Of a stretch of DNA of 52,554 nt, positions 2 to 48,677 are shown piece by piece; position 1 is the stretch's first letter, and each line of letters opens with the position of its first letter. Under the pieces are notes generated by a model. That model searched no databases and was not told the origin of the DNA. It saw only the letters and a program-made list of their open reading frames with translations. Source of the stretch: a virus; the IMG/VR virus record IMGVR_UViG_3300037193_000521, positions 1 through 52,554 of that record. One strand, given 5' to 3'. The position numbers and the translations under genes are program-made.

Positions 2-3000
2 GCCGAGGCGCACGCCGCCGATCCCGCGCCAGTCCCTGAGCGCCCCGCGCCTGCGAAACCGGCCGAGCCCGACTACGCCAGCATGGACCTGCCGGCCCTG
101 CGCGAGCGCCTGAAGTACATCGCCACCCAGGCCAAGGCGTCGGGCGGCTGGAACAAGATGTTCCTCGATGCACGCAAGCAGGTCGAAAAGGCGATCAAGG
201 CCAAGACCGCCGAGGTCCAGGCCGCGAGCAAGCCGGCCGAGGAGCCGCTGGTGGCCGGCCCGTTCGATGAGCGCGGCGCCGCCAACAAGATGATGCTGCG
301 CTTCGCCGAAAGCACGGGCGTGCCGCATGAAGTCGTCGAAGCCGAAGGCAAGTTCCGAATCCAACCGATCCAGGAGGCGAGCGATGCAGGTAACGGAAAT
401 GCTGTTCCCAGTGGAGATGACGGAATCGGAAGCGCTGGACCTGCTGCTGGAGACGGGGCAGTTGACGGAGCTGGAACTGTACCTGCTGGAAGCGTTCGAG
501 CTGACGAGCCCGTTGCCGGACAACCTGATCGAAATGGGCGACAAGGCGATGCAGAAGTTCCTGCTGATGCAGGTGGGACCACTGACGCCAAGCCTGCACT
601 GACCGCCGACGCGCCGGCCGTTGTCGAGCAACCCCAGCGCAAGGGCCAGGCCCGTCGCGACGCCGACCGCGCCAAGCACAAGCGCCAAGAGGAAGCCGTG
701 CGCCAGGCGCAAGAGAACATCGCGCGCCGCCAAGCAGAGAAGGAAGCGGCGGCAATCGCGTCTTCGCCCGAGGAAGTGCCAGAAATGGCACCATCCGAGC
801 CCGAGCAAGCGACGGGCGGCCCGGTCTTCACCCGCGACGAGATCGCCGTCGCCAAGCCCAAGACTAGCCGCCGCAAGCAGCCTAATGGCAGCGTCAGCGG
901 CGAGGTGACCACCACCGTCGACGCGCCGGGCAAAATCACCAGCCCGGAGAACTGGAGCCGCCTGGGCGACGTCGATGCCACCAAGGCGCTGGTGTCGGCG
1001 CGGCTGGGCGAAGACGGCAAGGCGCCATCGAGGAAGGATGCGGTCTGGACCGTGCGCGGCAAGAAGGGGGTAGTCATCGCGCGCGGCCTTACCTACGCCG
1101 ACGCGGTCGAGCGCGCCAAGGACCATGTGATGGGCGCGAATGCGGTGCCCAAGCAACCTGCTGCAGAAGAGGTGGAAGCCCAGCGCCAGACCGCTGAGCC
1201 GGTGGTCGAGAAGTCCGACGAGGATGCCGCCAACGACGAGATGCCGGCCGGCGCCGTGGCCCACATGCCGCCGCCGGACGATGCCGAGCGCCCTGGCGGC
1301 AAGGGGCCGGCCCATGAGACGGAAGCGACCGGCGACGAGCTGGCCCAGTTCGCCGAATCCGTGATCGAGAACCCGAACGAGGCGCGGTCGGTGCGCTATG
1401 GCGAGGTGGGCGAGCAGACTGCCGAAGCGTTCAAGCAGGCCGGCCTGGACGTGGCCGGCTTCGTGCACGTCGTCGACAGCGCCACCGTCAACCACATCAT
1501 GAAGCAGCACGGCAACCCGGAGAAGGAGGCGGCGCGGGGCCAGATCGCGGTGACGCCGAAGGATTTTGCGCGGCTGCCGGACGTGGTGAGCAACCCGGAC
1601 AAGGTCGAGCCGGTCGGCAAGACCAAGCGCGGCCTTGAAGCCGTGCGCTATACCAAGCGCATCAACGGGCACATTGTCGTGGTGGAGGCGGCAAGGACCG
1701 GGCGCCACAGGCTAGCGGTCGTGACCATGTGGAAGACCCGCCCGGGAGCAGATGCCCGGCCCGAGGCCGTCCCCCCTCCTACGTCCGAAACGTTACGGGC
1801 GGGATCTTCCAAGGACAATGTAGCATCGACGCAGGAAGATGCCAACCCTGACACGCAAGCCAAGGCCGGCAACAAGGTGGCCGAGGCCGGCGAGGAACTG
1901 ACCTACAACCGCCGCAACCGCATCCGTACCGGCCTGAAATGGTCCGATGTCGAGGGCATGAACGACGCCCTGAAGGCCAAGGGAACGGTCAAGGCCAAGG
2001 TCTGGCCCAAGCCGGACTACGACGCCCTGATCGCCAGCGGCATGCAGCCGCTGGTCGCCCACATCGTCAAGCAGGTCTACGACTCCGTGTCGGCCAAGCC
2101 GCAGACGGTGCGCGCGCCGGCCGACGCCGACTTCAAGCGCTACATCGAGGCCATGGGGCGGCTCCAGGATGGCGTGATGGCCTGGGCCAACGACAGCCAG
2201 GCCGTGGCCGCGTGGCTAAGTAAGATCGGCTCGCGCGCCTCGCGCATGCTGGGCGCCATGCAGGGCCAACCGGTCGCCCTGGCCGAGCTGGGCGGCGCGC
2301 CGGCGAAGGACTTGTTGCAATCGGTCTACCCGGAAGGCTGGCGCAACTACCAGGACGAGCTGCGCGTCGTCGGCGGCAACAAGGTGCTGCGCGCCCTGCA
2401 GCCGTCGACCGACGAGGCCGTGAAAGCCCTGAAGGAGATCGAAAAGGGCTGGCCGGGCAAGCGCGAGGCGTGGCAGGTACAGGGCTATCAGGTCCTGCCC
2501 AAGTCGGCGCACGAGGTCCAATCCAGCGGATTCGGCAAGTTCAACCTGCGCCTGGGTGGCCGGTTCGTGGCGCAGTTCGACACCAGCGAGCAGGCCGAAG
2601 CCGCCATGAACGAGGCGGCGCCGTTCACCCTGGTCGACAAGTACGGCCGCGCGCAGGGCACGTTCGACACCGAGGCCGCCGCCATCGAGGCGGCGCGCGA
2701 GCGCGTGAAGCGCGAAGGCAAGGACGGCCCGGTCGAAGAAGGCATGAACGTCGCCGACGTCGAGCGTACCGGCACTGACCGTCGCGCCGGCGAGGACGTG
2801 ACGGCCCAACGCCTGATGGACGACTTCGGCTTCCGAGGCGTGAACTTCGGCCGCTGGGTTCCCGACAACGAGCGCCAGCTACACCTGAACCACGCCTTCG
2901 ACTCGTTCCACGACCTGGCCGAGATCCTGGGCGTGCCGCCGCAGGCCATGAGCCTGAATGGCATGCTGGGCATCGCCTTCGGCGCCCAGGGCGGCGGCAA

Positions 3001-6000
3001 GGCGCTGGCGCATTTCGTACCGGGCGTGAACGAGATCAACATCACCCGCACCAACGGCGCCGGCTCGCTCGCCCACGAATGGGGCCACGCCATCGACCAC
3101 TACTTCGCCACCCAGGCCGGGCTGTCGACGACCGAAAACCCGTTCCTGACCGCGCACGCGACGCTGCCGGGCCGGATGGATCGCTTCGTCATGAAGGACG
3201 GCAAGCATGTGCGCGAGACGGTCGACCGCTTCGCCGGCGTGCGCCCGGAGATCGTGGACGCCTTCAAGCGCATCGTCGACACGATGGAGAAGCGCCAGGA
3301 ATCGCGGGAAGAAATGGAGAACCGGCTGGCGCGCGCCAAGGAAGGCGCCGTCAAGCGCGTGGACCAGTGGCTGGCCGCGATCCGCCGCGATTTCAAGGGC
3401 CACGAGGAACGGTTCGACGCCATCGCCGCCAGGATCAAGGCGGGCGAGCTGGGCGAGGGCATGGTCAGGGCGGGCAAGTCCTACCTGTCGCCGACCGTGA
3501 ACGAGCTGCGCGACCTGTACAAGTCGATCACGGGCCGCACCTATTCGCTCGACCAGGTCAACGGCCTGCAGTCGAACATCGACCACTGGCAGTTCGTCAC
3601 CGACGACACCCGGGCCAGCCGCAAGCACGAGCCGCAGAGGGTGTCGACCGAGTACGCCCGCAAGGCGGCCGAGATGGACAAGAACAAAGGCGGCAAGGGT
3701 TATTGGGCCACGCCCTGGGAGATGTTTGCGCGCGCCTTCGACGCCTACGTGTCCGACAAGCTGGAAGCCCAGGCGGCGAAGAACACCTACCTGTCGCACG
3801 CCGGCCGCAACGACCAGACCACGCCGACGGGCGACGAGCGCACCGTCATCGGCCAGGCGTTCGCCGACCTGATCGCGGGCATCGAGGTACGCGAGGAAGG
3901 CGGCCGCCCGGTCATGTACTCGGCCACCGACGCCGGCGCCATCGAACAGCTCATGGCCGACAAGTCGGGCAGCGCCACCGTGACCCGCGAGGGGATCGGC
4001 GAGATCACCATCGAATACGGCGACAAGGACGCCGGCCTGGCCCACATCGCGGCGCGGCGCGGCGCATCGTTCATGGAACGGTTGCCGGACCTGCTGGCGA
4101 CGGGCGAGGTCTACCGCAAGGACAACCAGCCCGACCGGATCTTCATCGGCAACGAGCGCGACGAGGCGGTGATCCGCACTGACCGTGACGGCGCCAAGGA
4201 AAACTGGCTGCTGTCGGCCTACGAGAAGCACCCGGAGGCGAAGCAGTCGCGCTCGGCCGACGAGAAGGTCGACGAGCCCTACGTGCGCTTGTCCGACAAG
4301 GAATTGAAGGACGCGCTGACCATCGGCACGGCGGCTGGCTCCGTCATCGCGCGCCTGATCGAGAACGGCGTGATCGTCATCCACCGCTCGGCGCGCACCC
4401 TGCCGAGCGAGGTGAAGGTCAAGTCGGGCGTGCAGGCGGTGACCATGCCCGACGGCACCATGCACCTGGTCGCCGGCCAGCTCACGAAGAAGAACGCGCG
4501 CGCCGTCCTGCTGCACGAGATGTTCCACTCGGGCGTGCGGCCACTGATCGGCTCGGCCCAGTGGTCGGAACTGATGGGCCGCATGGGCTCGCTCTACCGC
4601 CAGGCCGAGCAGTCCAATGGTAAAGCCCGGGAATTCTTCGACCGCGCCCGCGAGCGCGTGGGAAAGGCGAAGGCCAAGGGCGCCGTGCCGATCCGCATGG
4701 AGGTGGAAGAGTTCGCCGCCTATGCGATCGAGGAATACGAGCGCGCGCCGGACTCCCTGCCGGCGGCCATCCGCAAGTGGGTGGAAGACCTGATCGGCAT
4801 GATCAAGGCGTACCTCCTGGGCAGTTGGGGCAAGCAGATCGGCCAGGTCACGCCGGCGCAGCTATCCGGCCTCGCCAAGTTCGCGCTGGCGAGCATGGAG
4901 GCCAAGCGGCGCGGCTTCCCTGTGCCGGAAGAGGTGTACAGCCTGGACGACGAGCGCACCGTCGAAGTGGACGGCGTGCGCCGCCCGATCCGCGACAGCG
5001 AGGGCAACCTGATCGCCGGCGGCGATTTCATGAAGCAGATCGCCTTCTGGCGCGATTACGCCGGCCAGGTGGACGAGGCCGGCCGCCCGGTCCTGACCGA
5101 ACCGAGCTATTCCGTCGCCGACGACACCCCAGTCGACGAGATCGCCCAGCACATCGACCGCCGCCCGCTGTCCCTGGCCGTCGAGGGCGGCCTGGCGAGC
5201 CTGAAGAAATTCGGCATCCTGCCGATGGTGCCGATGAACTACCTGGTGGACTACGCGCGCCCGAACATGACGGCGGCCGGTGAGTACATGCGAGTCAAGC
5301 GCGCCATGGACACCTACCGGGGAGACAAGCACGGTGAATACGACGCCCACGCGCAGCGCTGGCTGAAGTTCAACGGCAAGAACAAGGCGCACGCCCAGGC
5401 CCTGGCCGACCTGATGCACGAGTCGACCATCGCCCAGGTCGATCCGTCGGCGCCGTATTCGCCGGACCTGTCCGAAGCCGAAAAGGTGATCCTGAAGCGC
5501 CAGCCCAAGAGCGAGGCGGCCGCACGCATCCGCGAGAAGATCGAGGCGGAACCGGCGAGGAAGGAAGCCTACGACGGCCTGGCCGAGCGCTTCAATGCCC
5601 TGCCCGAAGAGGGCAAAGCGCTCTACCGCGACACGCGCGACCTGTACACCAAGCAGGCCAAGGAACTGGACAAGATCATCCTGGAGAACGTCGAGCGTAC
5701 CCTGAAGGCGGCAACCGACAAGGCGCGCGACAAGTACGAGCGCGATGTCGACCAGGCCAAGGCCGAGATGAAGGGTGCCGAGCTGGACAAGGAGCTGAAG
5801 CGCCTGCACGCCGACTACACGAAAGAGGTCGGCCTGGCGAAATACCGCAACCGGGCGCGCCTCGCGGCGCTGCGCCAGGTGTTCGAGGCAAACCGCCTGG
5901 CTGGCCCGTACTTCCCGCTCGCGCGCTTTGGCGAATACTTCGTCGCCGTGCGCGACGAGAACGGCGACATGGTGAGTTTTAACAAGTTCGAGAAGCTGGC

Positions 6001-7975
6001 CGAGGCCCGTAAATTCGAGCAGGACGCCAAGAAGAACCGCAAGCACGAGGTCAAGCTGGGCGTGATGAGCAACCGCGACGAGGTGCGCGGCGCCGTCGAT
6101 CCGAAGTTCCTGGCCGACATCGAGGGCATCCTGGAGAAGTCCGGCGTGCCGTCGGACGTGCAGGACGAGGTCTGGCAGCGTTATCTGAACACCATGCCCG
6201 ACCTGTCGATGCGCAAGCGTTTTATTCACCGCAAGGGCACGGCCGGCTATTCCAGCGACGCGCTGCGCGCTTTTGCCTCGAACATGTTCCACGGCTCGCA
6301 CCAGATGGCGCGCCTGAAATTCTCGCCCGAGCTGACCGAGGCGCTGGACACGATGAGGAAGCAAGGCGAGGAATCGGACAAGCCGGTCGACGCCGGCCTG
6401 CTCGTCAACGAGTTCGAGCAGCGCCACCAGTGGGTGATGAACCCGCAGGGCAACGCGCTGGCGCAGGGCCTGTCCAGCATGGCCTTCGTGTGGAATCTCG
6501 CCATGACCCCGGCTGCAGCGATCATCAACACCTCGCAGACCTTCATGCTGGGCGTGCCGGTGCTCGGTTCTCGCCTGGGCGGCCAGGGTCGCGCGCTGGT
6601 CGAGCTGGCGAAGGCGTCGAAGGAACTGGCGACGTCGAAAAAGTGGACGGTCGAGAATAACCCGCGCCTGAACGCCAAGGAAAAGGAAGCACTGCACGAA
6701 TTCTACCGGCTGGGCCTGATCGACCGCACCCAGGCGCACGACCTGGCCGGCGTGGGCGAAACGGGCGTGGAGTACAGCCCGGTCAAGGCCAAGGTCATGA
6801 AGACGATCTCGTTCATGTACCACCACGCCGAGCGCATCAACCGCGAGGTGACCGCGCTGGCCGCCTACCGGATGGCGCGGCGCCAGGGACAGGGCCACGA
6901 GCAGGCGCTGGAGACGGCGGCCGAGGCGACCTGGGCCACGCACTTCGACTACAGCAACTCGAACAGGCCCCGTTACCTGCAAGGCAACTGGCAGAAGGCG
7001 CTGCTGATCCACCGCCAGCACTCGATCAACATGACCTACCGGCTGTTCCGCGACATGCACGACGCATTCAAGGGAGAGTCCGACCAGGTGCGCAAGGAGG
7101 CGCGCGCGCAGTTCGTCGGCATCATGGCGATGCACGGGCTGATGGCCGGCATCAAGGGCCTGCCGTTCTACGGCATCGCCATGATCGCCGCCGGCATGCT
7201 GTCCGGCCTGGGAGATGACGACGACAAGCTCACCCCCGAGGACCGCCTGAAGAAGACCCTGTACGAGCACCTGCCGAAGTGGCTGGCTGACACCCTGATA
7301 TACGGCGCGCCGTCGGTGGGTTCTGGCCTGTCCGTCACCAGCCGCATCGGCTTCCCCGACCTGTGGTTCCGCTCGCCGGACAAGGAGCTGGAGGGCAAGG
7401 AAGAGGGCCTGTACTACCTGGAGCAGTTCGCTGGCGCCGGTTTCGGCATGGGCATGAAGATCGCGGCCGGCGTCAACCTGATCCGCGACGGGCACTTCGA
7501 GCGCGGCATGGAAAAGCTGCTGCCCAAGGCGATCGGCGACTTGCTCAAGGCGAACCGCTACCGCCGCGAGGGAGCCCTGACGATGACAGGCAACCCGGTG
7601 GTCGACCAGTTCAGCACATGGGAAGTGCTCGGCCAGGCCGCCGGCTTCACGCCGCACAAGGTCACCCAGCAGTACGACGTGAACAACGCGCGCATGCGCC
7701 TGCAGACCGCGATCCAGTCCGAGCGCTCGCAGCTGTTCAACAAGGCATACCTGGCCTTCAAGGTGGAGGACAGCGAAGCCTACGACGAGGCGGTCGAGAA
7801 GATCACCCAGTTCGCGGATAAACACCCCGAGGCCGGCATCAAGGGCAGCACGGTCAGCCAGTACATCCGCAACCGGATGAAGAACGACGCGCGGTCCAAG
7901 GGCGGCCTGATCCTGAACAAGAAGATGGAAAGCGCCATCGATGAAGACCTGGGGCTGATGGAAGACGAGCAATAA
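2..7975 (+). CDS. Giant polyvalent phage protein with PLxRFG C-terminal region, 5' end missing
   Basis: The frame is open from the first bases of the window, so the start lies upstream; 2657 residues are visible. Numbering from the ATG at 83: residues about 455-550 resemble the phage barnase/EndoU/colicin/RelE-like nuclease family (H471, H476-G477, RGQ near 485). Residues about 900-1010 resemble large polyvalent domain 1 and end in HEWGH (998-1002), a zinc-peptidase type motif. A second HExxH, HEMFH, sits at 1478-1482. PLARFG at 1945-1950 is the hallmark of the PLxRFG family, whose C-terminal part of about 700 residues follows, with hydrophobic stretches near residues 2350-2375. Such proteins are usually virion-associated and thought to enter the cell with the DNA, protecting it or modifying the host; that role is inferred here. 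It lies just before the lysis genes. Codon use changes between about 384 and 602, where another gene is nested. Confidence 0.9.
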   Translation, partial: AEAHAADPAPVPERPAPAKPAEPDYASMDLPALRERLKYIATQAKASGGWNKMFLDARKQVEKAIKAKTAEVQAASKPAEEPLVAGPFDERGAANKMMLRFAESTGVPHEVVEAEGKFRIQPIQEASDAGNGNAVPSGDDGIGSAGPAAGDGAVDGAGTVPAGSVRADEPVAGQPDRNGRQGDAEVPADAGGTTDAKPALTADAPAVVEQPQRKGQARRDADRAKHKRQEEAVRQAQENIARRQAEKEAAAIASSPEEVPEMAPSEPEQATGGPVFTRDEIAVAKPKTSRRKQPNGSVSGEVTTTVDAPGKITSPENWSRLGDVDATKALVSARLGEDGKAPSRKDAVWTVRGKKGVVIARGLTYADAVERAKDHVMGANAVPKQPAAEEVEAQRQTAEPVVEKSDEDAANDEMPAGAVAHMPPPDDAERPGGKGPAHETEATGDELAQFAESVIENPNEARSVRYGEVGEQTAEAFKQAGLDVAGFVHVVDSATVNHIMKQHGNPEKEAARGQIAVTPKDFARLPDVVSNPDKVEPVGKTKRGLEAVRYTKRINGHIVVVEAARTGRHRLAVVTMWKTRPGADARPEAVPPPTSETLRAGSSKDNVASTQEDANPDTQAKAGNKVAEAGEELTYNRRNRIRTGLKWSDVEGMNDALKAKGTVKAKVWPKPDYDALIASGMQPLVAHIVKQVYDSVSAKPQTVRAPADADFKRYIEAMGRLQDGVMAWANDSQAVAAWLSKIGSRASRMLGAMQGQPVALAELGGAPAKDLLQSVYPEGWRNYQDELRVVGGNKVLRALQPSTDEAVKALKEIEKGWPGKREAWQVQGYQVLPKSAHEVQSSGFGKFNLRLGGRFVAQFDTSEQAEAAMNEAAPFTLVDKYGRAQGTFDTEAAAIEAARERVKREGKDGPVEEGMNVADVERTGTDRRAGEDVTAQRLMDDFGFRGVNFGRWVPDNERQLHLNHAFDSFHDLAEILGVPPQAMSLNGMLGIAFGAQGGGKALAHFVPGVNEINITRTNGAGSLAHEWGHAIDHYFATQAGLSTTENPFLTAHATLPGRMDRFVMKDGKHVRETVDRFAGVRPEIVDAFKRIVDTMEKRQESREEMENRLARAKEGAVKRVDQWLAAIRRDFKGHEERFDAIAARIKAGELGEGMVRAGKSYLSPTVNELRDLYKSITGRTYSLDQVNGLQSNIDHWQFVTDDTRASRKHEPQRVSTEYARKAAEMDKNKGGKGYWATPWEMFARAFDAYVSDKLEAQAAKNTYLSHAGRNDQTTPTGDERTVIGQAFADLIAGIEVREEGGRPVMYSATDAGAIEQLMADKSGSATVTREGIGEITIEYGDKDAGLAHIAARRGASFMERLPDLLATGEVYRKDNQPDRIFIGNERDEAVIRTDRDGAKENWLLSAYEKHPEAKQSRSADEKVDEPYVRLSDKELKDALTIGTAAGSVIARLIENGVIVIHRSARTLPSEVKVKSGVQAVTMPDGTMHLVAGQLTKKNARAVLLHEMFHSGVRPLIGSAQWSELMGRMGSLYRQAEQSNGKAREFFDRARERVGKAKAKGAVPIRMEVEEFAAYAIEEYERAPDSLPAAIRKWVEDLIGMIKAYLLGSWGKQIGQVTPAQLSGLAKFALASMEAKRRGFPVPEEVYSLDDERTVEVDGVRRPIRDSEGNLIAGGDFMKQIAFWRDYAGQVDEAGRPVLTEPSYSVADDTPVDEIAQHIDRRPLSLAVEGGLASLKKFGILPMVPMNYLVDYARPNMTAAGEYMRVKRAMDTYRGDKHGEYDAHAQRWLKFNGKNKAHAQALADLMHESTIAQVDPSAPYSPDLSEAEKVILKRQPKSEAAARIREKIEAEPARKEAYDGLAERFNALPEEGKALYRDTRDLYTKQAKELDKIILENVERTLKAATDKARDKYERDVDQAKAEMKGAELDKELKRLHADYTKEVGLAKYRNRARLAALRQVFEANRLAGPYFPLARFGEYFVAVRDENGDMVSFNKFEKLAEARKFEQDAKKNRKHEVKLGVMSNRDEVRGAVDPKFLADIEGILEKSGVPSDVQDEVWQRYLNTMPDLSMRKRFIHRKGTAGYSSDALRAFASNMFHGSHQMARLKFSPELTEALDTMRKQGEESDKPVDAGLLVNEFEQRHQWVMNPQGNALAQGLSSMAFVWNLAMTPAAAIINTSQTFMLGVPVLGSRLGGQGRALVELAKASKELATSKKWTVENNPRLNAKEKEALHEFYRLGLIDRTQAHDLAGVGETGVEYSPVKAKVMKTISFMYHHAERINREVTALAAYRMARRQGQGHEQALETAAEATWATHFDYSNSNRPRYLQGNWQKALLIHRQHSINMTYRLFRDMHDAFKGESDQVRKEARAQFVGIMAMHGLMAGIKGLPFYGIAMIAAGMLSGLGDDDDKLTPEDRLKKTLYEHLPKWLADTLIYGAPSVGSGLSVTSRIGFPDLWFRSPDKELEGKEEGLYYLEQFAGAGFGMGMKIAAGVNLIRDGHFERGMEKLLPKAIGDLLKANRYRREGALTMTGNPVVDQFSTWEVLGQAAGFTPHKVTQQYDVNNARMRLQTAIQSERSQLFNKAYLAFKVEDSEAYDEAVEKITQFADKHPEAGIKGSTVSQYIRNRMKNDARSKGGLILNKKMESAIDEDLGLMEDEQ
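384..602 (+). CDS. Small gene nested in another frame of the giant gene
   Basis: A 72-residue acidic, Leu/Glu-rich, probably helical protein, not recognised. It starts at ATG 384, six bases after a perfect AGGAGG (372-377), and ends in TGA at 600-602. Its codons look like the rest of the phage (CTG for most leucines, mostly G or C at position three). In the giant-gene frame the same bases give a low-complexity Gly/Ala/Asp stretch whose third positions are rich in A and T. This is what is expected when the nested frame is the constrained one. Either it is a real nested gene or the giant frame is a fusion running through an old intergenic gene. The function is unknown. Confidence 0.6.
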   Translation: MQVTEMLFPVEMTESEALDLLLETGQLTELELYLLEAFELTSPLPDNLIEMGDKAMQKFLLMQVGPLTPSLH

Positions 7976-46989: not shown

Positions 46990-47609
46990 TGAAACCACTC
47001 GACGCCTTCCTCAACAAGATCAACCCGTATGCGCCGGGCTGCGCGATCCCGACCGCTTTCAACGCGATCCGGGATGCGGCCATCGAGTTCTGCGAGAGAA
47101 CACGCCTGTGGCGCTGGGAGGACGAATTTGACGTGTCGGCCTCCGACGCCGAGGCGATCAGCACGCCCTACGGTTCGGTCCTGCTCGACATCGAGAAGGT
47201 CAGCTTCGACGGCGAACCGCTCGAACCCAAGACCGTCGCCTGGCTGGATGAGCACATGAACGGCTGGCGCACCGGCGCCGTCGCGGGCCAGCCGAAGTAC
47301 CTGACCCAGTTGGAGCTGAACACGATCCGCCTTGTTCCCGGCCAAGCGGGAACGGTGAACATCAGCGTCTGGCTCAAGCCGTCACAGGACTGCATGGACT
47401 TGCCCGCCTTCCTGTCCGACCAGTTCCGGGAAGTCATCGCCCACGGCGCGCTGGGGCGCATCCTCATGATGCCGTCTCAGCCCTTCACCAATGGCGACCT
47501 GGGCGCCGGGTTCCTCGCCAGCTTCGAGAGCAAGCTGACGCAGCTATCGGGCAAGGGCATCACGGGTCAGCAGCGTGCGCGCGTGCGCACCCGAGCATCC
47601 TTCATGTAA
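46989..47609 (+). CDS. Virion protein (head-tail connector or tail tube-like)
   Basis: 206 residues. The start KPLDAFLNKINPYAPGCAIPTAFNAIRDAAIEFCERTRLWR and LSDQFREVIAHGALGRILMMP are found in a family of podovirus virion proteins that follow the adaptor. It probably takes part in the head-tail joint. Function is inferred from neighbours. Confidence 0.75.
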   Translation: MKPLDAFLNKINPYAPGCAIPTAFNAIRDAAIEFCERTRLWRWEDEFDVSASDAEAISTPYGSVLLDIEKVSFDGEPLEPKTVAWLDEHMNGWRTGAVAGQPKYLTQLELNTIRLVPGQAGTVNISVWLKPSQDCMDLPAFLSDQFREVIAHGALGRILMMPSQPFTNGDLGAGFLASFESKLTQLSGKGITGQQRARVRTRASFM

Positions 47610-47619
47610 CGGAGAACGA

Positions 47620-48048
47620 ATGAGCGCAGCATCGAACTACACCGAAGAAAACCACATGGCCGCGCTGTGCGACGGCGTCCCGTATCCGCTGCCGACCGGC
47701 ACCTGGATCTCGCTGCACACTGCCGCCCCTGGCAAGACCGGCGCCAACGAGGTGACCCTGGACGCTTGGCCGGCCTATGTGCGCCGCGACGCGGAACAGG
47801 GCGGCGCCATCGGCACGGGCTGGACCACGACGGCCAACGGCGAGCGCAAGAACGCAAAACAGCTCACGTACCCGTCGTTCAACCCGGCGAACCTGGACGC
47901 CGAGATCACGATCGTCGGCTGGACCGCGTGGGATGCGCCCGTTGGCGGCAACCCGCTGTTCGGGGCGCTGCTGGAAACGGATCGCCTTCACAAGCGGGGC
48001 GACGTGTTCGTGTTCGACATCCACGCCCTGACCGCGAAGCAGTCCTGA
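47620..48048 (+). CDS. Fibre-module virion protein
   Basis: 142 residues from ATG 47620 behind GGAGAA. GTWISLHTAAPG, then an extended beta-rich region with WTAWDAPVGGNPLFGALL and GDVFVFD. The layout resembles small virion proteins found next to fibre genes, and is similar to the product of 9797. It shares its last base with the next start (TGATG). Confidence 0.75.
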   Translation: MSAASNYTEENHMAALCDGVPYPLPTGTWISLHTAAPGKTGANEVTLDAWPAYVRRDAEQGGAIGTGWTTTANGERKNAKQLTYPSFNPANLDAEITIVGWTAWDAPVGGNPLFGALLETDRLHKRGDVFVFDIHALTAKQS

Positions 48049-48677
48049 TGGAACGCTACACGCTCAACGAAACGCCGCTCGCCGGCGCCGCGCTGATGTT
48101 CGGGCGTGGTGCCGCAGCGCAGTCGCTGATCGTGGGCGGCGCCGGGCACCTGGTCATGCAAGGCAGGCCGGCGCCGGCCGCGATGACCGTCTTGGCTGAT
48201 GGCGATGGCGTACTGGCGCAGCTCGGGCGCGGCACGGCAAACATGAGCATGAGCGCAGCAGGCCGGGCGTACCTGATCATGCGCGGCCTGGCGCGCGCGG
48301 CGCTGTTGGCGCTCGACGCCCTGGGCAACGGGGCAGTGATCCCGGCGGCGCGCGGCGTGGCGGCCATGACCATGACGGCTCTAGGGCGTGGCATGAACGC
48401 GGTGCGCGGATCGAGCGCTGCTGACCTGTTGCTGGGCGCGCAGGCGCGCGGCACGGTGGCGAAGCTCGGCGCCGGCCTGGCCGACCTGGTCATGACGGGC
48501 AGTGCTGGCATTCCGCGCCCCTTCAAGCTGCCATCCAGGTTCTCCCGCGCGCACGCCTCGCGTCAGGTGCGCGTGCCGCACGCGTCGATCACGCGTGAGC
48601 TGAATGGTGGCGATCGCACCACGGCCGTCGAGCGCGAGCACCGCACCATCATCGTTGCCCCGGAAAGGAACCCATAA
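48048..48677 (+). CDS. Virion protein with six 20-residue repeats
   Basis: 209 residues from ATG 48048. Residues about 25-145 hold six repeats of 20-21 residues of the form hydrophobic strand, G, polar, A, GRG.A, e.g. GRGTANMSMSAAGRAYLIM. The C-terminal part (RVPHASITREL, TTAVEREHRTIIVAPERN) is like the end of the LamG-like protein at 11009. Probably a fibre-associated protein; the repeats may build a beta-solenoid. Confidence 0.75.
   Translation: MERYTLNETPLAGAALMFGRGAAAQSLIVGGAGHLVMQGRPAPAAMTVLADGDGVLAQLGRGTANMSMSAAGRAYLIMRGLARAALLALDALGNGAVIPAARGVAAMTMTALGRGMNAVRGSSAADLLLGAQARGTVAKLGAGLADLVMTGSAGIPRPFKLPSRFSRAHASRQVRVPHASITRELNGGDRTTAVEREHRTIIVAPERNP

Follow-up and report, generated by a model that had tools for sequence, protein, structure and literature searches.

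A Putative Small Gene Overprinted on a Linker of Giant Phage Protein Genes

Results

The Giant Gene and Its Nested Frame

The window, by which we mean the entire stretch of DNA analyzed here (positions 1 to 52,554 of the 52,554-nucleotide virus record IMGVR_UViG_3300037193_000521), begins inside a giant gene, the frame of which is open at the contig edge and has its true start beyond that edge (Table 1). The giant protein matched the DarB-like family phrog_10089 in a profile comparison, and the presence of LPD39, LPD1, and the effector domain PBECR3 in one very long protein identifies it as a large polyvalent protein. Proteins of this kind, that is, the DarB-like or LPD/PLxRFG class, have been described as injected (PMC5512222), and the giant protein of the Bcep22-like phage JC1 was detected in virions (PMC9144972).

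A second coding frame lies in its entirety within the giant gene, on the same strand and in the +1 frame, and has start signals of its own. The preliminary description of this locus had placed an AGGAGG motif 6 bases upstream of the ATG codon of a 72-codon frame, and its coordinates were exact. Purine-rich stretches resembling Shine-Dalgarno sequences were also located upstream of the homologous start codons described below. No further nested candidates emerged when the assigned forward genes of the window were scanned. The scan gave a second signal at position 47667, which we rejected as a gene-boundary artifact since the better frame at this site belongs to the gene at 47575-48048. The long open reading frame at 47667-48677 begins within the frame at 47575-48048, the codon use of which is better, and the true start of the gene in the longer frame probably lies further downstream.

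Table 1. Features of the giant gene, the nested gene, and the candidate frames in Bcep22-like phages
Feature	Positions	Strand	Basis or remark
Giant gene for DarB-like/PLxRFG large polyvalent protein	2..7975	+	2657 aa shown
Helical motif conserved in the giant, LRERLKYIATQAKASGGWNKM...VEKAIKAK	77..223	+	Alignment; precedes the nested gene in all DarB-like relatives
Second giant segment, GPFDERGAANKMM...KFRIQPI	257..370	+	Sequence comparison; immediately 5' of the nested start
Shine-Dalgarno AGGAGG of the nested gene	372..377	+	Sequence; 6-nt spacer GCGAGC to ATG 384
Giant-frame reading over the nested gene	383..601	+	Linker rich in Gly, Ala, and Asp, GC3 0.29; its sequence is not specifically conserved between genera
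Nested gene, 72 aa, MQVTEMLF...TPSLH, +1 frame relative to the giant	384..602	+	Sequence, codon use, homologs; ATG 384, stop TGA 600-602
PBECR3 nuclease-like domain of the giant	1406..1741	+	Pfam PF18812, E=7.5e-25; 3' of the nested gene
LPD1 domain of the giant	3683..3886	+	Pfam PF18796, E=9.5e-16
LPD39 domain of the giant	5207..5779	+	Pfam PF18858, E=1.5e-54
+1 frames in Bcep22-like phages	L005:4332-4496, L006:4332-4520, L008:4353-4517, L009:4332-4478, L035:5356-5520, L037:5353-5493		

Codon Use in the 2 Overlapping Frames

The G+C content at codon positions 1, 2, and 3 of the nested frame was about 0.62, 0.28, and 0.86, which resembles that of other genes, and the codon log-odds between positions 384 and 599 were +0.55 per codon in the nested frame versus -0.39 in the giant frame. 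In a sliding window, the GC3 value of the giant frame decreased from 0.9 to between 0.24 and 0.32 across the nested frame and returned to about 0.8 past position 602. Over this stretch, only the nested frame had gene-like codon use. The sliding-window analysis had been proposed in the preliminary description, which reported phage-like codon use in the nested frame and a Gly/Ala/Asp-rich giant-frame stretch with A/T-ending codons that returned to normal after about position 602, and both observations were borne out.

As a null model, the giant protein was synonymously recoded in 20,000 trials. The probability that the +1 frame stays open for 72 codons was 0.82, and the combination of AGGAGG with a start codon, which had a probability of 0.13, was mildly unusual. 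A GC3 value as low as the observed value of 0.29 was obtained in 0 of the 20,000 trials, for which the expected value was 0.90. Thus, the length of the frame and its ribosome site may be due to chance, but its codon composition is not. The lowest GC3 value in the other 73-codon windows of the giant gene downstream of position 602 was 0.71, and the minimum in 73-codon windows of 13 other genes was 0.55.

Homologs in DarB-Like Giant Genes

Used as a direct query, the 72-residue protein gave no match in tblastn searches of phages and plasmids or when viral and genome contigs were scanned for patterns. Relatives were reached only when the helical motif that is conserved in the giant ahead of the nested gene served as the query, and later via other members of the nested family. 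A tblastn search with residues 1 to 128 of the giant retrieved giant proteins from Bcep22-like phages, Pavtok/PEp14, Lastavirus, Parlo, Skulduggery, and Itty13. In several of these, the linker past the shared motif shows a dip in the GC3 value of the giant frame, and in this linker Pavtok, PEp14, Stean, ZX1, and Parlo contain +1 frames of 70 to 76 amino acids that end with LH before the stop codon. The motif query also identified 23 viral loci, which yielded an intact nested gene in 5 more viruses (L018, L019, L030, L031, and L039). In total, nested homologs of 67 to 76 amino acids were found in the +1 frame of the same linker in Erwinia, Klebsiella, and Serratia phages and in 5 metagenomic viruses, with a TGA, TAA, or TAG stop codon at the same place. 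None of these nested frames was annotated in the phage records examined, and tight alignments of the nested proteins used as scan queries identified no new contigs. Stretches resembling the second giant segment, immediately ahead of the nested start, were present in L018, L019, and L030 and absent in the Erwinia and Serratia phages.

A profile built from the 5 metagenomic members ranked the nested frame of the window first among 902 six-frame open reading frames, with E=6e-9 compared to 4.8 for the next match; a profile from the Erwinia, Klebsiella, and Serratia members alone also ranked it first, but only with E=0.04. In shuffle tests on the 11 initial members (55 pairs), the median Z-score was 5.3 standard deviations for the nested proteins and 1.2 for the overlapped giant segments, so the resemblance of the nested proteins is not a by-product of the giant reading frame. 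In the Erwinia trio, the substitutions at giant codon positions 1, 2, and 3 numbered 20, 21, and 65 just upstream of the overlap versus 55, 39, and 49 within it, a shift from position 3 to position 1 for which the chi-square value is only indicative because the pairs are not independent. Codon use, profile matches, and substitution pattern all indicate that selection acts on the nested protein over and above its action on the giant frame. The suggestion that constraint lies on the nested frame was thus sustained by the codon log-odds, the homolog comparisons, the recoding trials, and the substitution shift. In L030, a single codon separates an in-frame stop codon of the nested frame from the ATG, and the product must therefore start at that ATG in this virus.

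According to the preliminary description, the case for the nested gene would fail if relatives retained the giant protein through this stretch with stop codons in the nested frame. One relative of many, L026 (IMGVR_UViG_3300011523_000001), fits that description: its nested homolog at positions 5098-5305 is interrupted by one in-frame TAG codon, on either side of which the 2 halves are still recognizable as members of the family (E=8.9e-9 and 2.3e-5). We regard it as a recently broken copy or a case of an amber codon rather than as evidence against the nested gene.

The Bcep22-like phages contain a +1 frame of 46 to 62 amino acids with AGGAGG before the ATG at the position equivalent to the nested gene (Table 1). 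At these loci, the GC3 value of the giant frame was 0.33 to 0.46 versus an expected value of 0.86, and there were fewer third-position changes. None of these frames matched the profile of the nested family and they were not counted as members; they are possibly a diverged form or a different nested gene.

Homologs in Other Giant Genes

With the ZX1 member as the query, a weak match was obtained inside the virion RNA polymerase (vRNAP) gene of Erwinia N4-like phages. The vRNAP genes of Pastis, S6, and Fifi011 contain a +1 nested frame of about 70 to 74 amino acids that ends with SLH before the stop codon, and a profile based solely on the DarB-type members identified just these 3 N4-like frames (E=6e-9, 8e-9, and 1e-6), the next match having an E-value of 1.1. 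In the vRNAP of N4, the N-terminal domain and the polymerase are connected by a flexible linker some 100 residues long (907-1007; PMC12633501), and the nested gene of Pastis overlies vRNAP codons of about 917 to 988. The GC3 signal was weak in the N4-like members with lower G+C content (P 0.007-0.12).

A search of Pseudomonadota genomes identified a nested copy in 1 of 398 (contig G477); there was no other match among 399 genomes of the same order, and none in 289 alphaproteobacterial genomes. The copy is located in the +1 frame within a giant open frame that spans 2542 amino acids or more at the start of the contig (L064:2-7630, G477:C40), and the next genes on this contig from a bacterial genome resemble, as judged by eye, phage structural genes. 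It is the most diverged copy and ends with PANRLPL. A match in Vibrio phage 51E28 (E=3) was in frame with an annotated 113-amino acid gene of different sequence and was dismissed as chance.

The family thus comprises 15 members: those in the window, L018, L019, L030, L031, L039, Pavtok, PEp14, Stean, ZX1, Parlo, Pastis, S6, Fifi011, and G477. The phase is identical in all 15, and each lies within a linker rich in Ala, Gly, Pro, and Asp. When each nested protein was recoded with the codon use of its own giant gene, the giant phase was open in 0.4% to 53% of the trials and the other phase in 0% to 3%. The giant phase reads as Ala, Gly, Pro, and Asp, with a hydropathy of -0.3 to -0.9, and the other phase mostly as Arg, Cys, and Ser with stop codons. 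A G+C-rich gene for a Leu-rich helical protein thus yields a stop-free linker one phase over and a stop-filled reading in the other phase, so that it can hide in one phase only. In the low-G+C members, the giant phase is rarely open by chance, which implies that both frames have been kept.

Presence and Absence in Sister Phages

The giant proteins of the phages SopranoGao and ZX1 are 96% to 99% identical over the N-terminal 1000 residues ahead of the nested cassette, which is present in ZX1 where SopranoGao has a short linker, the difference being 57 codons in frame. No nested gene, and no copy elsewhere, was found in Itty13, Skulduggery, LASTA, N4, Frozen, Ea9-2, and others. This distribution indicates that the nested gene is accessory and dispensable, the giant being continuous with or without it, and its clean absence in sister phages together with the TAG codon in L026 speaks against the nested gene being essential to the giant protein itself.

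The same 2 giant proteins (L065/L066), near identical in their N-terminal parts, have different helicase/methylase middles, a comparison that points to domain swapping within one genus. The SopranoGao giant gene (L016) also shows another GC3 dip near positions 5112-5303, with an open +1 frame of 63 amino acids, and the linkers of giant genes may hold other nested genes.

Predicted Structure of the Nested Protein

AlphaFold2 models of 8 members showed helices at residues 14-23, 29-38, and 46-63, with a mean pLDDT of 80. The product is predicted to consist of 3 helices, a SHOCT-like hairpin followed by a C-terminal amphipathic helix ending in P-x-x-SLH; no similar structure was found with Foldseek and other structure searches. 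Residues 11 to 37 of the Klebsiella ZX1 member align with the whole SHOCT model (Pfam PF09851, E=1.8e-4), and the Pastis member matches it with E=0.03. However, the best member scored 21.6 bits compared to the curated Pfam cut-off of 27, the protein in the window has no Pfam match, and the nested family differs from SHOCT by its additional conserved C-terminal helix and P-x-x-SLH end. A weak collinear match of residues 27 to 61 of the window protein to phrog_13357, a family of unknown function, was also obtained (E=0.018), but this family was matched by only 1 of 11 members, probably by chance.

The net charge of the members ranges from -13 to +7, so that no simple binding role follows and binding to nucleic acids is unlikely. 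We also considered an immunity protein for the PBECR nuclease domain of the giant, and rejected it because the nested gene also resides in the vRNAP genes of N4-like phages, and these polymerases are not known as nucleases.

Discussion

Judged by its sequence and above all by its relatives, the nested frame in the window is almost certainly a real protein gene, and very probably an unannotated one that arose by overprinting, in the +1 frame, of the flexible linker that connects domains of a giant virion protein. Late in infection, ribosomes would start internally at the AGGAGG and ATG on the giant mRNA and produce a 72-residue protein of 3 helices, while ribosomes in the giant frame would translate these bases into an Ala/Gly/Asp linker. 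Made from the same message, the nested protein could be a small accessory to the giant protein that helps, for instance, to hold, package, or eject it, a role to which we assign a little less than an even chance. On a broader and more tentative reading, a portable overprinted cassette may move between unrelated giant ejected virion proteins, here the DarB-like polyvalent proteins, the N4-like virion RNA polymerases, and the polyvalent proteins of prophages, always into a flexible linker and in the phase that reads as a linker, and encode a dedicated helper for packaging or ejection. It is also quite possible, if somewhat short of an even probability, that the gene is real but a passenger whose function, such as host takeover, exclusion, or counter-defense, has nothing to do with the giant protein, and that the linkers of late giant genes merely tolerate a second frame. 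Such an unrelated function would fit the clean presence and absence in near-identical sister phages, the broken copy in L026, the occurrence of one family in giant genes of different kinds, and the variable charge. A free passenger should, however, sometimes stand alone, and no such copy, which the preliminary description had proposed to look for in relatives, was found in the phage, plasmid, viral, and genome contig searches; moreover, the host proteins belong to the giant polyvalent or vRNAP classes that have been described as injected.

The preliminary description had offered 2 origins, a giant linker forced to accept the nested gene, which is the better supported of them, and a fusion of 2 genes flanking an older small gene into one frame that runs through it. 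In favor of such a fusion, the nested frame has native codon use, and where the DNA is rich in G+C, a gene of this kind often leaves the giant phase open unaided. We nevertheless consider the fusion improbable, since the giant frame is unbroken at this site in every relative examined, including the sister phages that lack the nested gene, and since the presence of the small gene in several giant genes of different kinds would require repeated fusions. Even less probable is a programmed +1 frameshift, by which the nested frame would supply a truncated giant protein with another C-terminus rather than form a separate gene: the nested frame is open for 11 to 136 codons upstream of its start in most members (30 codons in the window, where a frameshift is accordingly less improbable than in L030), but this upstream reading is cut to a single codon in L030, the starts are preceded by Shine-Dalgarno-like stretches, and conservation begins at the start. 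That the frame has opened by chance over a linker of low complexity and odd codon use, with no gene present, we regard as hardly credible, for although the open frame is expected and the ribosome site not very rare in the recoding trials, the GC3 trough was never reproduced, profiles match in independent phages, phase, place, and stop are shared by 15 loci, and the homologs do not follow from homology in the giant frame.

Known examples of embedded phage genes are Rz1, which lies within Rz (spanins), and E, which lies within D of phiX174. As in these pairs, a small gene is here contained wholly within another phage gene, in a shifted frame and with its own start. It differs in that it overlaps the linker of a giant virion protein and recurs in different giant genes. 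In contrast to Rz1-type spanins, the protein in the window has no cysteine and hence no lipobox, it has no Rz1-like signal or other sign of being a lysis protein, and the host gene encodes a giant polyvalent protein rather than the i-spanin of a lysis cassette. Large polyvalent proteins (PMC5512222) and the N4 virion RNA polymerase (PMC12633501) are the classes that host the nested cassette, and we found no mention of a nested gene in them in the open-access papers searched or in the record annotations examined. The present nested gene recurs in the same phase inside different kinds of giant proteins and has been missed by those annotations.

Reviews describe the newer of 2 overlapping frames as the disordered one (PMC8227390). 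Here, this usual picture is reversed, in that the small nested protein is conserved and helical while the host frame is a disordered linker. GC3 troughs in the linkers of giant phage genes provide a simple search rule by which more nested genes may be found. How giant ejected proteins are threaded through the narrow tail is unexplained (PMC12633501), and the nested protein is a concrete candidate for a helper of these proteins.
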